In this document: positions 19,001 to 21,993 of the stretch, one piece after another
Layout of the letters: the number at the start of each line of letters is the position of its first letter
How positions within the stretch are numbered: the stretch's first letter is position 1
Source: an uncultured Verrucomicrobiales bacterium
GTDB taxonomy: Bacteria; Verrucomicrobiota; Verrucomicrobiia; Verrucomicrobiales; DEV007
DNA length: 37,736 nt
Assembly (NCBI GenBank): GCA_913058215.1
Contig: CAJXQE010000021.1
Coordinates: forward strand, 1-37,736
Direction of reading: 5' to 3'
Translations under genes and position numbers: made by a program
The notes under the pieces: model-generated
The model's input: only the letters and a program-made list of their open reading frames with translations
Told to the model about the DNA's origin: nothing
Database searches by the model: none

Positions 19001-19447
19001 GGCCGTAACTTTGCACAGGGACGAAAAATGTTCGGAGCTGCTGCCTGTTATGCGTGCCACCGTTTTGGAAACGAAGGCGGAATGACCGGTCCTGATTTGA
19101 CGGGTGCAGGTGGTCGTTACAGCCCTCATGATTTGCTGGATCAGATCATCAATCCAAGCAAGGAAATCAACGAGCAGTTTGCTCCTATCGTGGTGACGAA
19201 GAACAACGGCGATGTTTCCACCGGAGTGGTCGTCAACCTGAGTGGTGACAACGTCACGATCAACACTGATGTATCGAACCCCAACCAGCGTGAAAACATT
19301 GACCGCAAAGAAGTGAAGAGCATCGAAGTGAGTAAAGTCTCACCAATGCCACCCATGTTGCTGGCGATGTTGAAGGAAGAGGAAGTCCTCGACCTCCTCG
19401 CCTACATCCTGAGCGGTGGGGATAAAGAGAACGCGATGTTTAAATAG
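16082..19447 (+). CDS. DUF1080 / sugar-dehydrogenase-like beta-propeller / HEAT / cytochrome c fusion
   Basis: A 1121-residue exported multidomain protein (signal peptide 1-22; Met at 16085 is an alternative start). Residues 25-230 are DUF1080, the 3-keto-disaccharide hydrolase fold (FRSLFNGKDLTGW, GGYQCDVHP, KWHEYTIIAKGNHLIHKIDG). Residues 253-282 are a Lys/Gly/Ala-rich linker. Residues about 295-665 form a beta-propeller like PQQ-type soluble sugar dehydrogenases and planctomycete membrane-bound dehydrogenase proteins (GFRNIYGGDVNREGELF, VVSGGEYGWRNG). Residues 680-960 are helical, HEAT-like. Residues 975-1115 are a cytochrome c domain with C989-Y-A-C992-H993 and late Met residues in MPPMLLAM. 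The layout suggests one chain that oxidises a sugar, passes electrons to heme and cleaves a 3-keto glycoside. That coupling is inference. It follows the sulfatase by 52 bp. Confidence 0.85.
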   Translation: MMKNLTALIALILLAFAPVLTAQDKDGFRSLFNGKDLTGWDGNTELWSVEDGAITGKTSGPGQLKYNQFLIWRGGILKNFELRAKVKVEGNNSGIQYRSKEMPEVGKWSIGGYQCDVHPAPKNNAMVYHERGRGIIVQNGQSVVIDPQGGKWVVAEHETVAVDTAKWHEYTIIAKGNHLIHKIDGKMTIDLVDHEEKFRSLKGLLAFQVHGGPAMTVQIKDVMLKELPDGGVIPFAKSNIPNDAQMIEKPAPKGKGKGKGKVPAKGKAKGKAKAKAKAKPKRAQAVGPAIGENVATPVDRVKALKDFKVELLYSVPGGDHGSWVALCADDKGRIYASDQYGDLYSFNPPKPGAVLKKGDVKKVPVNIRAINGMVFTDGAIYAGVNDYEQKMTSGLYRISDSDNNGEMDKVELLRGFESKSDHGVHAVVPTRDGESFYLITGNNAVLTDIEESSPVAKNWADDHLLPRMPDGRGHNRSVLAPGGIIYKVSKDGKKFEAFASGFRNIYGGDVNREGELFTYDADMEYDFNTPWYRPTRVNHVVSGGEYGWRNGAGKYPEFYPDTLPATLNIGPGSPTGTRFGYGSKFPEKYQKAFYVLDWSWGKLYAVHLEPKGASYTATKEDFITGAPLPITDLIIHPKDGAMYFAIGGRRVQSGLYRVTYAGGEDTSPLPPVTATAQKTTDGLRNLRHKLEAFHGKKEADPAAVAKAWEHLDHGDRHIAWAARIILEHQPVSGWKEKALSEKTPGKQLPALLTLARVSEAGPSHRDEKYKVDVATRDQILGSLLKLDYASLKHREQLTHVRTFEIALHRAGDPDQATIDKIIAQLDPSFPADNFAENWLLCETLAHLQAPNAAAKGMALIADAVGQEQQLEYARSLRFLKTGWTPALREAQLNWFLTAANYKGGASFDKFIEFIRNDALATFTDAEKKEHAELIAKKAERKSAIENVGAMFAGRTPKMWTLDQLSKAAGTELKGRNFAQGRKMFGAAACYACHRFGNEGGMTGPDLTGAGGRYSPHDLLDQIINPSKEINEQFAPIVVTKNNGDVSTGVVVNLSGDNVTINTDVSNPNQRENIDRKEVKSIEVSKVSPMPPMLLAMLKEEEVLDLLAYILSGGDKENAMFK
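16838..16927 (+). repeat. Low-complexity Lys/Gly/Ala linker-coding repeat
   Basis: Iterated AAG/AAA with GGN and GCN codons encode a roughly 30-residue KGKGK..KAKAKAKAK tract between the DUF1080 and propeller domains. The composition resembles histone-H1-like tails, but it lies inside an exported enzyme, so a flexible, highly cationic linker that could bind anionic (sulfated) glycan is more likely. Such repeats change length easily by slippage. Confidence 0.8.
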
Positions 19448-19468
19448 GGAGTCGTGGTCGAGGGCAGT

Positions 19469-19495
19469 CCACGGAATACACAGAAGGCACGGAAA
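19469..19495 (+). repeat. Left arm of CACGGAA inverted repeat
   Basis: It starts CCACGGAA and ends CACGGAAA. It pairs with 19704-19730 with four mismatches. It lies 21 bp after the stop of the DUF1080-cytochrome gene, so it could also form the stem of an mRNA 3' structure. Confidence 0.75.
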
Positions 19496-19516
19496 CAGGT
19501 CTGACGCAGTTTTTGG

Positions 19517-19676
19517 ATGAGTGAGCTTATCTACAAGGCTGAGTCATACTTGATTCGTGGGGCCGCCTTTGAGGTATACAAGGGAAAAGGAGTCTGAACC
19601 GGATTTAATTCACCTCGGCCTACTGATCAATTTCGGCCATCACCCGAAAGTCGAAATCGAACGCATCGTTTTGTAA
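19517..19676 (+). pseudogene. GxxExxY-family (PDDEXK-type) protein, internal deletion
   Basis: The N-terminal part (ATG 19517 to stop 19595-19597) reads MSELIYKAESYLIRGAAFEV then YKGKGV, matching the family's N-terminal helix up to just before the GxxExxY motif. The C-terminal part (about 19611-19676, a different frame) reads LGLLINFGHHPKVEIERIVL and stops at 19674, matching the family's C-terminus. Intact members are about 125-130 residues, so roughly 70-80 codons, including the GxxExxY and D..ExK core, are missing and the frame is broken. GxxExxY proteins have a restriction-endonuclease-like fold of unknown function. The remnant cannot be active. Confidence 0.8.
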
Positions 19677-19703
19677 GGGCCACCAATTTCCAAAATCATA
19701 AAA

Positions 19704-19730
19704 TTTCCGTGTGTTCCGTGTCTTCCGTGG
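19704..19730 (-). repeat. Right arm of CACGGAA inverted repeat
   Basis: On the plus strand it reads TTTCCGTG to TTCCGTGG, the near reverse complement of 19469-19495. Three TTCCGTG units are spaced 9-10 bases apart. It ends 52 bp before the start codon of the next sulfatase. Confidence 0.75.
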
Positions 19731-19782
19731 TCCATACTTCCACAAGCCCTGCGAGCTCACCCAAAGTCCACATCAACCAAAC

Positions 19783-21993
19783 ATGAATCGTATTATCCAG
19801 TTTCTCTTCTGCCTTTTAGCAATCCCGCTTTCTCTCATCGCGCAGGAGAATCTCATCGCGCAGGAGAAGCAGCCTAACATTGTCTTTTTCTTCACTGATG
19901 ATCAGACGATCAGCACGATCGGATGCTATGGAAATCCCATCGTCAAGACTCCTAACATCGACGGCCTCGCCGCTCGCGGAACTCGCTTCGACAATGCCAC
20001 CGTCAGCCACTCCATCTGTTGGGTAAGCCGCACCACCATTCTATCCGGCCTGATTGGTCGAAGCTACAGTACCCCGGCCAATCCGGATCAGGCGCGTCCC
20101 GATGCCGTTGAAACACTTTACTCCGACATCCTCCGCGAGAATGGATACCGAACTGGATACTTCGGAAAATGGCACGCAAAAATGCCGAAAGGCTGGAAGG
20201 CGGCGGATCACTTCGATGAGTTCGAGGCCATCGGACGGAACCCTTTTTACAAAAAACAAGCCGACGGCAGTCTTCGTCACGAAACAGAAGTCATCGTCGA
20301 TCGCGGGATTGAGTTTGTGAAGAATCAGTCCAAGGACAAACCCTTCGCACTCAACATGTGGTTCAACGCCTGTCACGCCGAGGACGGCGATCGTCGCCCG
20401 GGGATCGGTCACTTCGCATGGCCCCGCGCTGTCGACGGCATGTATGACGACACGGAAATGTATCAGCCGCGGCTCAACGATCCTGCAATTTTTGATGCAC
20501 AACCTGACTTCCTGAAGACCACCATCAATCGCGAGCGTTTTTTCTGGCGCTGGAATACGGAAGATAAGTACCAGACGAACATGCGCGCATATCTGCGTAT
20601 GGTCAGTGGCATCGATGGTGCCATCGGGCGTTTCGAAAAAGCTCTCGAAGAAGCGGGTCTGGCCGACAACACGATCATCGTTTATTCCGCCGACAATGGC
20701 TATCACATGGGCAACCGCGGCTTTGCTGGCAAATGGTCACACTATGAGGAAGCTCTCCGCGTTCCGCTCATCGTTGCAGATCCCCGGGTCCCGGAAAAAG
20801 AACAGGGAAAGGTTGTCGATGCACCTGCTCTCAACCTTGATCTTCCTGCCACCTTCCTCGACTGGGCCGGTGCGGACATTCCGGAACGCTATCAGGGCCA
20901 CAGTCTGAAGCCGATTGTAGATGCGAAGGTCCCCGGTGACTGGCGTAAGGAAACTTTTCACGAGCATTTCGCGGTGCGGAATCGCATCCCCGCTTTCGAA
21001 GGGCTCCGCAATGATGACTTCAAGTACGTCCGCTATTTTGATCACGGAAACTACGAGTTTCTTCACGATCTCAAGAAAGATCCCGACGAGCTTGTCAATT
21101 TGGCCGGGGATTCGAAATATGCTGACAAACTTAAAGAAATGCGTGAGCGCACCACCACACGGATCTCCGAAATAGGCGGGCCGCTCGATCCTCCCAAGGG
21201 TGCATTCACTGCCTCCACCGTTCCCCACCCGGAAGCAGCCGCAGCGGTTACGCAAAAGCCGGGTAAAGACGGGTTCGTGAATCTGTTCAATGGCAAAAAC
21301 CTTCAGGGCTGGACTGGTGATCTGAAATACTGGTCCGTAAAAGACGGGGCGATCACTGGTGTGACCGATGGCAGTTTGAAGATGAATCGTTTCCTCACCT
21401 GGAAAGGTTCCACGGTTCACAATTTTGATTTGCGAGTGAAAGTCAAAGTCACCGATGGCGGCAACAGCGGCCTCCAATACCGCAGTGTGATGCGCCCGGA
21501 ACTCGGGCTTGATATCGTCAGCGGATATCAATGCGACGTGGTTTCCAATAATCCAAAATACAATGGAATGCTCTATGAAGAGAAAGGTCGCCGGATTCTT
21601 TCTCACACGGGCGAGAAGGTGATCGTCGACAAAAAAGGGCAGCCTTGGATTGTTGGTGAAATGCCGGTCAAGGAATTCGCCGCCGACGAGTGGCATGATT
21701 ATCGTGTCCTCGTAGAAGGGAATCATCACCAGCACTGGATCGATGGTCATCAGACAGCCGACTTCATCGATCTCGACGAAGAAGGAAGGTCACTTGGCGG
21801 AGTGTTAGGGGTGCAGGTTCATGTGGGGCCGGCGATGGTGATTCAGTACAAAGATTTCAAGATTAAACATCTGCCCGATGATCTGCCATTGCTGACAACT
21901 GAGGATGCAGCGATCCCGGCGGAATCCCCTGGAGTGAGGCCGCAAGGCAAATTGCCGAAGGATTGGAAGCCGCCTGTTTATGGGGAGCAGTAG
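19783..21993 (+). CDS. Secreted sulfatase-DUF1080 fusion (CWVSR active site)
   Basis: A 736-residue exported protein. ATG 19783 gives a signal peptide MNRIIQFLFCLLAIPLSLIA. Residues 30-480 are an S1 sulfatase: FFTDDQT (D39, D40), GYFGKWHAKMPKGW, SADNGYHMGNRGFAGKWSHY, and a C-terminal subdomain ending DPDELVNLAGD. The formylglycine motif reads C79-W-V-S-R; position +2 is Val rather than the usual Pro or Ala, so modification of C79 is uncertain. Residues 510-710 are a DUF1080 domain (GFVNLFNGKNLQGWTGD, GYQCDVVSN, EWHDYRVLVEGNHHQHWIDG) clearly related to that in the 16082 gene. One chain may desulfate and then cleave or bind the same glycan. A perfect 18-bp tandem repeat duplicates the signal-cleavage region. 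It follows the decayed GxxExxY cassette. Confidence 0.88.
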   Translation: MNRIIQFLFCLLAIPLSLIAQENLIAQEKQPNIVFFFTDDQTISTIGCYGNPIVKTPNIDGLAARGTRFDNATVSHSICWVSRTTILSGLIGRSYSTPANPDQARPDAVETLYSDILRENGYRTGYFGKWHAKMPKGWKAADHFDEFEAIGRNPFYKKQADGSLRHETEVIVDRGIEFVKNQSKDKPFALNMWFNACHAEDGDRRPGIGHFAWPRAVDGMYDDTEMYQPRLNDPAIFDAQPDFLKTTINRERFFWRWNTEDKYQTNMRAYLRMVSGIDGAIGRFEKALEEAGLADNTIIVYSADNGYHMGNRGFAGKWSHYEEALRVPLIVADPRVPEKEQGKVVDAPALNLDLPATFLDWAGADIPERYQGHSLKPIVDAKVPGDWRKETFHEHFAVRNRIPAFEGLRNDDFKYVRYFDHGNYEFLHDLKKDPDELVNLAGDSKYADKLKEMRERTTTRISEIGGPLDPPKGAFTASTVPHPEAAAAVTQKPGKDGFVNLFNGKNLQGWTGDLKYWSVKDGAITGVTDGSLKMNRFLTWKGSTVHNFDLRVKVKVTDGGNSGLQYRSVMRPELGLDIVSGYQCDVVSNNPKYNGMLYEEKGRRILSHTGEKVIVDKKGQPWIVGEMPVKEFAADEWHDYRVLVEGNHHQHWIDGHQTADFIDLDEEGRSLGGVLGVQVHVGPAMVIQYKDFKIKHLPDDLPLLTTEDAAIPAESPGVRPQGKLPKDWKPPVYGEQ
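19833..19868 (+). repeat. Perfect 18-bp tandem duplication at the signal-peptide cleavage region
   Basis: Bases 19833-19850 and 19851-19868 are identical and in frame, giving LIAQEN followed by LIAQEK. The duplication offers two possible signal-peptidase sites six residues apart. Likely a recent slippage event. Confidence 0.85.

Follow-up and report, generated by a model that had tools for sequence, protein, structure and literature searches.

Inverted arms of repeated 7-bp units around a decayed GxxExxY gene: a candidate class of small mobile cassettes

GxxExxY proteins are a frequent annotation without a role. Cas4/RecB-type nucleases have a PD-(D/E)XK core with a QxxxY motif, and MITEs are internally deleted copies of mobile elements in which the ends are kept. 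As described in the available part of PMC3116915, REPIN/RAYT systems consist of short inverted doublets with a linked small gene and occur as gene-less extragenic hairpins. The recombination-promoting nucleases Rpn (PF04754) are small PD-(D/E)XK proteins which, according to the abstract and outline of PMC5350276, have been proposed to act in gene acquisition. The 23S rRNA intervening sequences are, in the accessible text of PMC4990558, small selfish insertions with one S23-type ORF. Finally, the portion of PMC8934634 that was available reports a GxxExxY domain where cas4 had been described earlier.

The window, by which we mean the whole stretch of DNA analysed (37,736 nucleotides from an uncultured Verrucomicrobiales bacterium), contains the following features.

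19469-19495, + strand: left arm, units CACGGAA, CACAGAA and CACGGAA, 7 bp each, at 9-bp spacing
19517-19597, + strand: start of a GxxExxY (PF13366) gene, 26 codons plus stop, identified by tblastn to intact members
19598-19610, + strand: deletion junction and frame change, placed by comparison with intact members
19611-19676, + strand: end of the GxxExxY gene in another frame, 21 codons plus stop, identified by PF13366, TIGR04256 and tblastn
19704-19730, - strand: right arm, three CACGGAA units spaced 9 bp, in inverse orientation to the left arm

The original prediction had proposed two inverted 27-bp arms, each built from three CACGGAA-type units. Alignment confirmed this, with 23 of 27 positions identical, and the arm score was equalled in none of 4886 draws of identical geometry at random window positions. 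The units lie at 19470-19476, 19479-19485 and 19488-19494 on the left and at 19705-19711, 19714-19720 and 19723-19729 on the right. The four differences between the arms fall on three spacer bases and on the degenerate fourth position of one unit. CACGGAA itself occurs 14 times in the window, as compared to a mean of 6.2 and a largest count of 12 in shuffled sequence.

The start and the out-of-frame end of a gene with a deleted middle had also been proposed between the arms, and comparison with intact members upheld this reading. The membership of the two translated pieces, queried separately, in the GxxExxY family was borne out by tblastn against the fetched loci, with a best match of 76% over 25 aa for the N-terminal piece (E=8.6e-9) and 95% over 19 aa for the C-terminal piece (E=6.6e-9). 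The C-terminal piece (19611-19673) also aligned with positions 100-117 of PF13366 (E=0.022, 15.6 bits against a cut-off of 22) and positions 99-116 of TIGR04256 (E=0.012, 16 bits against a cut-off of 35), neither score reaching the curated cut-off. For the 26-aa N-terminal piece (19517-19597) there was no match to either model, and neither piece matched PF04754. Compared with intact members, some 75-80 codons, as estimated by eye, are missing between the two pieces, which are in different frames; the missing middle is the region of the invariant E, D, ExK and QxxxY residues. Sequence comparison thus confirmed 19469-19730 as a predicted GxxExxY gene, internally deleted, between inverted three-unit arms. 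The copy is located between a 1121-aa ORF that ends at 19447 and an ORF starting near 19783, which we take to be sulfatase-like. Near the start of the latter, an 18-bp exact tandem direct repeat is present at 19833-19868. The neighbouring genes match different contigs in the congeners searched and are non-syntenic there, so that an empty site for the window copy is unreadable.

Several traits link this locus to the described systems. As in the available account of REPIN/RAYT, inverted repeats and a linked small gene are accompanied by gene-less copies in extragenic space, some of which are still hairpin-like here. However, the REPIN/RAYT enzyme is an HUH Y1 transposase whereas that of the GxxExxY cassette is a PD-(D/E)XK protein; searches of Pfam and NCBIfam with the C-terminal piece and the intact relatives returned GxxExxY models and no Y1 transposase model. 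Moreover, the unit spacing of the GxxExxY arms changes with the protein subfamily. Like a MITE, the window copy has gene pieces within terminal inverted arms, and full-length copies with CACGGAA arms exist in congeneric genomes; unlike MITEs, GxxExxY cassettes have shown no convincing direct target duplication at the sites inspected, and no DDE transposase partner was identified for them. Rpn and GxxExxY are both small PD-(D/E)XK nucleases, of different Pfam families, and the inverted unit arrays of the GxxExxY cassettes are unmentioned in the abstract and outline on Rpn (PMC5350276). Whereas 23S rRNA intervening sequences sit in rRNA, the window copy is found between protein-coding ORFs, and Rfam gave no match at 19300-19900. 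GxxExxY shares with Cas4/RecB the PD-(D/E)XK-type residues, the QxxxY motif and weak Cas4 HMM matches, but differs from Cas4 in being a stand-alone gene in its own armed cassette. In the literature searched, mostly outside subscription papers, the accessible text held no description of GxxExxY or S23 armed cassettes, and TIGR04256 and TIGR02436 were not mentioned in it. The repeat-unit strings had only unrelated matches there (connexin; eye development) in the text available, and for the S23/IVS, RAYT/REPIN and Rpn literature these arms are absent from the titles and abstract starts among the matches listed.

To measure how often such arms flank GxxExxY genes, we matched the upstream flank of every gene to the reverse-complemented downstream flank, with a threshold score of at least 14. 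We used 30 GxxExxY loci from a phylum-wide draw (set A) and the best 80 of 441 confirmed loci, from named genomes (set B). In a first test, inverted arms were found at 22 of 29 set-A and 57 of 62 set-B loci, as compared to 0 of 56 and 0 of 117 control positions shifted by 1 kb. This test left out 17 of the 80 set-B loci, in which a motif search found no gene, and one more with short flanks, as well as one of the 30 set-A loci (short flanks) and one of the 30 loci of set C, described below (too short). Matches in direct orientation across the gene reached the threshold at 6 of 29 set-A and 19 of 62 set-B loci, because the flanks often contain additional arrays and hairpins.

A later test placed the genes by HMM and added loci from the window's own genome, from congeneric genomes, from genome G004 and from plasmids. 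A gene was located in 152 of 153 loci, 151 of them with enough flank, and arms were observed at 126 of these 151, as against 2 of 266 shifted positions. Four locus pairs were the same record twice; with these removed from the loci, though not from the 266 controls, arms flank 122 of 147 unique loci. Since set B contains many orthologous loci from a single Opitutaceae site, we also give counts after thinning, which were 59 of 77 loci below 70% protein identity and 26 of 40 below 60%. By source, the unique loci with arms were 72 of 78 from named genomes, 23 of 32 from the phylum draw and the own genome together, 21 of 26 from the genus, 4 of 5 from G004 and 2 of 6 from plasmids. The 25 unique loci without arms include four of the six plasmid loci and two of the three PF13366 genes of the window's genome. 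In a cross-locus control with 32 loci, the 99th percentile was 17 and the maximum 23, showing that single scores of 14-17 prove little. Overall, the layout of arms around a GxxExxY gene, which had been predicted from the window copy, is general. In the window's own assembly, none of the three PF13366 genes has clustered CACGGAA-type units nearby and two are of the KPYE type (L002, L003); genes like that of the window, with CACGGAA arms, are present in congeneric genomes (L282, L283, L286).

Most arms are made of a 7-bp unit with the outline C-R-C-N-R-A-N, repeated two or three times with one, two or three spacer bases. A period could be called in 108 of the 126 armed loci (9 bp in 78, 10 bp in 25, 8 bp in 4 and 11 bp in 1), and in 107 it was 8-10 bp. 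In an earlier lag test, 49 of 57 set-B loci had 9 as their best lag, compared with only 12 of 22 in set A. The unit varies with the subfamily (CACGGAA, CACGAAA, CGCGAAA, CACAGAG, CGCCAAG, CGCTGAT, CACGAAT); to regard the arms as a CACGGAA-only feature was therefore wrong. Spacing and arm sequence both vary with the protein: among 52 thinned loci, nearest neighbours agreed at 0.73 as compared to 0.45 after permutation (p=6e-4), and a Mantel comparison of arm and protein gave a rho of -0.46, with no permutation below -0.19. The KPYE type had the 10-bp period in 9 of 9 thinned loci. At several KPYE-type loci (L298, L299, L306, L307, L309), the units are reversed in direction relative to the gene.

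S23 four-helix-bundle genes (TIGR02436, L145-L174; set C) were taken as a comparison. Inverted arms were found at 19 of 29 S23 loci, as against 0 of 58 shifted positions, and direct-orientation matches at 3 of 29. These arms consist of 7-bp tandem units (GAATCGT, AGGAGTC, AATGCGG and others), with lag 7 or 14 being best in 17 of 19. They are analogous to the GxxExxY arms, with a 7-bp spacing, and it is in the 7-bp tandem make-up of the arms that the S23 loci studied here differ from 23S rRNA intervening sequences. The two families were also compared in a pool of 225 inverted pairs from 2.0 Mb of sequence, which is redundant and enriched by design for GxxExxY and S23. Among pairs with a period of 8-10 bp, 131 hold a GxxExxY gene and one an S23 gene, while at a period of 7 bp 26 hold S23 and one GxxExxY. 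Of the 225 pairs, 66 hold neither gene and at least 3 consist of runs of N.

The observations are probably best explained by a mobile arm-GxxExxY-arm element, whose GxxExxY protein would move its own copies and gene-less ones; the window copy would be a dead, deleted member. Weighing against this model are the 25 unique loci without arms, the direct-orientation matches and, as described below, the weak periodicity of the G029 elements, the long residence in Opitutaceae and the nesting of the G004 arrays. An intact element would consist of an arm, a GxxExxY gene and a second arm within about 440-500 bp. GxxExxY, as a PD-(D/E)XK nuclease, would bind the unit arrays at both ends as double-stranded DNA. 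A spacing of 8-10 bp would place about one helical turn between units, so that three protomers could sit side by side. Cleavage at the arms by GxxExxY would then move its own element as well as gene-less copies. Having lost the nuclease and kept three recognisable units per end, the window copy would be movable, now or formerly, only in trans. The original prediction had invoked a transposase in trans, and in this it fared less well: none was identified and, because arm spacing and sequence are linked to the GxxExxY subfamily, the data point to the GxxExxY protein itself. If GxxExxY does move its own cassette, the protein family gains a function, with a Cas4-like nuclease as transposition enzyme. 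There would then exist very small mobile elements, as a class of their own, whose end codes are modular and subfamily-specific. Many CACAGAG/CACGAAA-type repeats dispersed through environmental genomes could be explained in this way. A wider proposal, which we make tentatively and hold at somewhat less than an even chance, is that GxxExxY proteins are the transposition nucleases of undescribed minimal elements with a subfamily 'ruler' (three 7-bp units at 8, 9 or 10 bp, read at both ends), that they also disseminate copies without a gene, and that S23 forms a parallel 7-bp class. Under this ruler, GxxExxY and S23, both long listed without a clear role, would be mobility proteins.

The link between arms and protein also bears on a rival in which GxxExxY is the cargo of a mobile cassette and another host enzyme, such as a RAYT/Y1 transposase or a reverse transcriptase, acts on the arms. 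Two genes with inverted repeats of their own, which we take to be RAYT/Y1-like transposases, do occur in the element-bearing stretches of genome G029 (C1:442739-443288 and C1:523592-524683), where they could serve as an internal standard. Furthermore, at L256:1498-1966 (G128:C1) a 142-codon ORF unrelated to GxxExxY, with no GxxExxY or S23 HMM match, is enclosed by CACAGAG arms, as though other cargo had entered the cassette. Against this reading stand the tracking of the GxxExxY subfamily by arm spacing and sequence and the sorting by period in the pair pool, which has one exception on each side and 66 pairs with neither gene. We therefore consider it unlikely that GxxExxY is a passenger; were it so, the cassettes would still be an undescribed mobile element, though a less new one.

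The pattern of mismatches between left and right arms is informative about how the arms could be recognised. In 39 thinned loci, 42 of 753 unit positions (5.6%) were mismatched as compared to 54 of 145 spacer positions (37%; p=2.5e-22), and in this most GxxExxY arms, as rows of 7-bp units with non-complementary spacers, differ from a REPIN/RAYT hairpin. The units had been conditioned on the left arm, which biases the unit figure downwards; unit position 5, which lies outside that condition, was mismatched in 9 of 107 cases against the same 54 of 145 for spacers (p=7e-8). Position 4, which is degenerate, was mismatched in 21 of 107. G-T wobbles between the arms were not above A-C mismatches (33 v 33, 18 v 20, 9 v 22). 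Selection for base pairing would be expected to keep a stem matched along its whole length, and in RNA to leave G-T wobbles. Conserved units with divergent spacers suggest sequence recognition rather than a base-paired stem, and the arms look like rows of predicted binding sites on double-stranded DNA, mirrored at both ends. On the wobble test and the concentration of mismatches in the spacers, the reading of the arms as an RNA stem was rejected. It is accordingly improbable that the arms act as RNA, either in a stem-loop like that of 23S rRNA intervening sequences or in a retro-mobile form, with RNase III or reverse transcription as the activity involved. That S23-type ORFs, known from intervening sequences in the accessible text of PMC4990558, have mirrored arms here speaks for such a reading, while the distribution of mismatches, the wobble counts and the Rfam result at the window copy all speak against it.

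The intact protein has the features expected of the nuclease in the preferred element model. Residues E29, D69, E79, K81, Q93 and Y97 are invariant in 51 GxxExxY sequences, and we presume that the E, D, ExK and QxxxY residues are catalytic. Four intact relatives match PF13366 at 2.9e-42 or better and did not match PF04754 at E <= 0.1. Weak Cas4 matches were obtained for two of three members with PADLOC and, below cut-off, for two of four with Pfam, which suggests that GxxExxY is a nuclease of the Cas4/RecB sort. A profile search for a solved structure gave 0 matches at E up to 10. In three of seven pairs with unsaturated dS, dN/dS values of 0.046, 0.084 and 0.096 were estimated from the sequences, which is purifying selection on the predicted protein.

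Selection of this strength would also suit a selfish or defence nuclease, toxin-like or homing-like, whose arms are operators or sites of occasional recombinational exchange. So would the long residence of the cassette at one site across many species of Opitutaceae, where it is more like a resident gene. The site is, presumably, between ybbA-like and ybbP-like genes, and at L113:2960-3410 the cassette is inverted there relative to its flanks, as compared to L068 and L138. We give this reading little credence, since an operator would leave unexplained both a mirror-image array at each end and gene-less copies that are polymorphic independently of the gene.

Such gene-less copies and the arrays they carry were surveyed across the phylum, the PF13366 and pattern draws being taken as one set of 145 genomes, as their handles agree. 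PF13366 was found in 69 of the 145 genomes and a pattern of three CACNGAR units in 36, while the reversed control pattern matched one genome. PF13366 was present in 35 of the 36 pattern-positive and 34 of the 109 pattern-negative genomes (Fisher p=2.9e-13, with kinship ignored). This association, together with the positional controls, excluded a random co-occurrence of CACGGAA repeats with GxxExxY genes. The window's genome has nine three-unit matches at seven places, and also gene-less pairs shorter than 262 bp on contigs C81 and C243. By eye, the 262-bp window copy fits into a size series with these pairs, in agreement with its proposed status as a MITE-like relic. Two contigs of this genome, C369 and C543 (L028:1-28, L029:1-58), end inside CACGGAG arrays; repeats of this type may break the assembly, and copies may thus be under-counted. 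Genome G004 contains 134 CACNGAR arrays which, where read, lie inside a larger amplified repeat with shared flanks. Seven of 15 G004 stretches (L262-L275, L281) show a strict pair whose outer ends are about 100-130 bp apart. These arrays were nonetheless rejected as clean gene-less elements, being nested in the larger repeat with unreadable ends.

Empty sites in relatives, which the original prediction had raised, exist for copies other than that of the window, both gene-bearing and gene-less. A 498-bp GxxExxY element of G029 is missing at the matching junction in the congeners G003, G130, G081 and G032, the G003 flanks being 85-89% identical. G032 carries an 88%-identical copy of this element elsewhere, and the two align as far as the arm ends and no further. 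An 876-bp element of G029 (L206:4009-4884, that is G029 C1:424009-424884) is missing in G032 and G081, and its site had no full flank match in G003 or G130. It is filled by a 271-codon ORF with the GxxExxY domain at its start, a longer form of the protein. A 78-bp gene-less copy (G029 C1:167224-167301), which has the 26-bp arms of the G029 elements, is absent in G003, G130 and G081; G032 gave no full flank match at this site. Further gene-less hairpins in G029 share the 26-bp arms, and more distant ones are found at two other G081 sites.

The arms of these G029 elements, with and without gene, are inverted and weakly periodic; the unit periodicity is 0.37-0.46 for the two that carry the gene and have clean empty sites. 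When two contigs of G029 (873,805 bp) were scanned without bias, 2 of 54 inverted pairs were clearly periodic, both at 7 bp, and the GxxExxY elements were among the non-periodic pairs. Because of this weak periodicity, it is from two gene-less cases and from a shift between two Kiritimatiellales MAGs that the movement of canonical array-armed copies is deduced. In these MAGs (L065, L066), a shared gene-bearing element lies one gene apart, at a site which we take to be a hydrogenase-maturation gene cluster. The element is about 80% identical, as are its flanks, and the protein 87%; by eye, a decayed arm was left at the vacated site. The two gene-less cases came from a scan for polymorphism in set-B pairs of at least 74% identity. 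One is an 88-bp CACGAAA copy present in L066 and absent in L065, and the other a 160-bp CACGGAA copy in L130 (1226-1385), of which 31 bp are left in L127 (1359-1391). L127 and L130, from the window's genus, are identical records to L282 and L286. None of the sites examined by eye had a convincing direct target duplication; at the L066 gene-less insert, the bases on the two sides agree at part of nine positions. Overall, the data show that the cassettes move, and the interpretation first given to the window copy is largely supported.

It is highly improbable that the arms belong to widespread intergenic repeats or terminators, with plain deletions behind the presence-absence differences. Arrays without a gene are indeed common in intergenic space, some arms border T-rich runs and the short L127 allele keeps the outer palindrome edges, but the positional controls (0/4886, 2/266, 0/117), the presence of one sharply bounded element at unrelated sites in G029 and G032 and, strongly when taken with that G032 copy, the absence of the 498-bp element from four congeners at once argue against it. 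In the short L127 allele, the outer arm edges appear to be joined (GGCGGCC..TAGGCCG), which may be the footprint of an excision or else a palindromic target. In L066, where the gene-bearing element of L065 is absent, TGAAA-type units, each about 7 bp long, form a row at 1608-1650 that resembles, by eye, an S23 arm.
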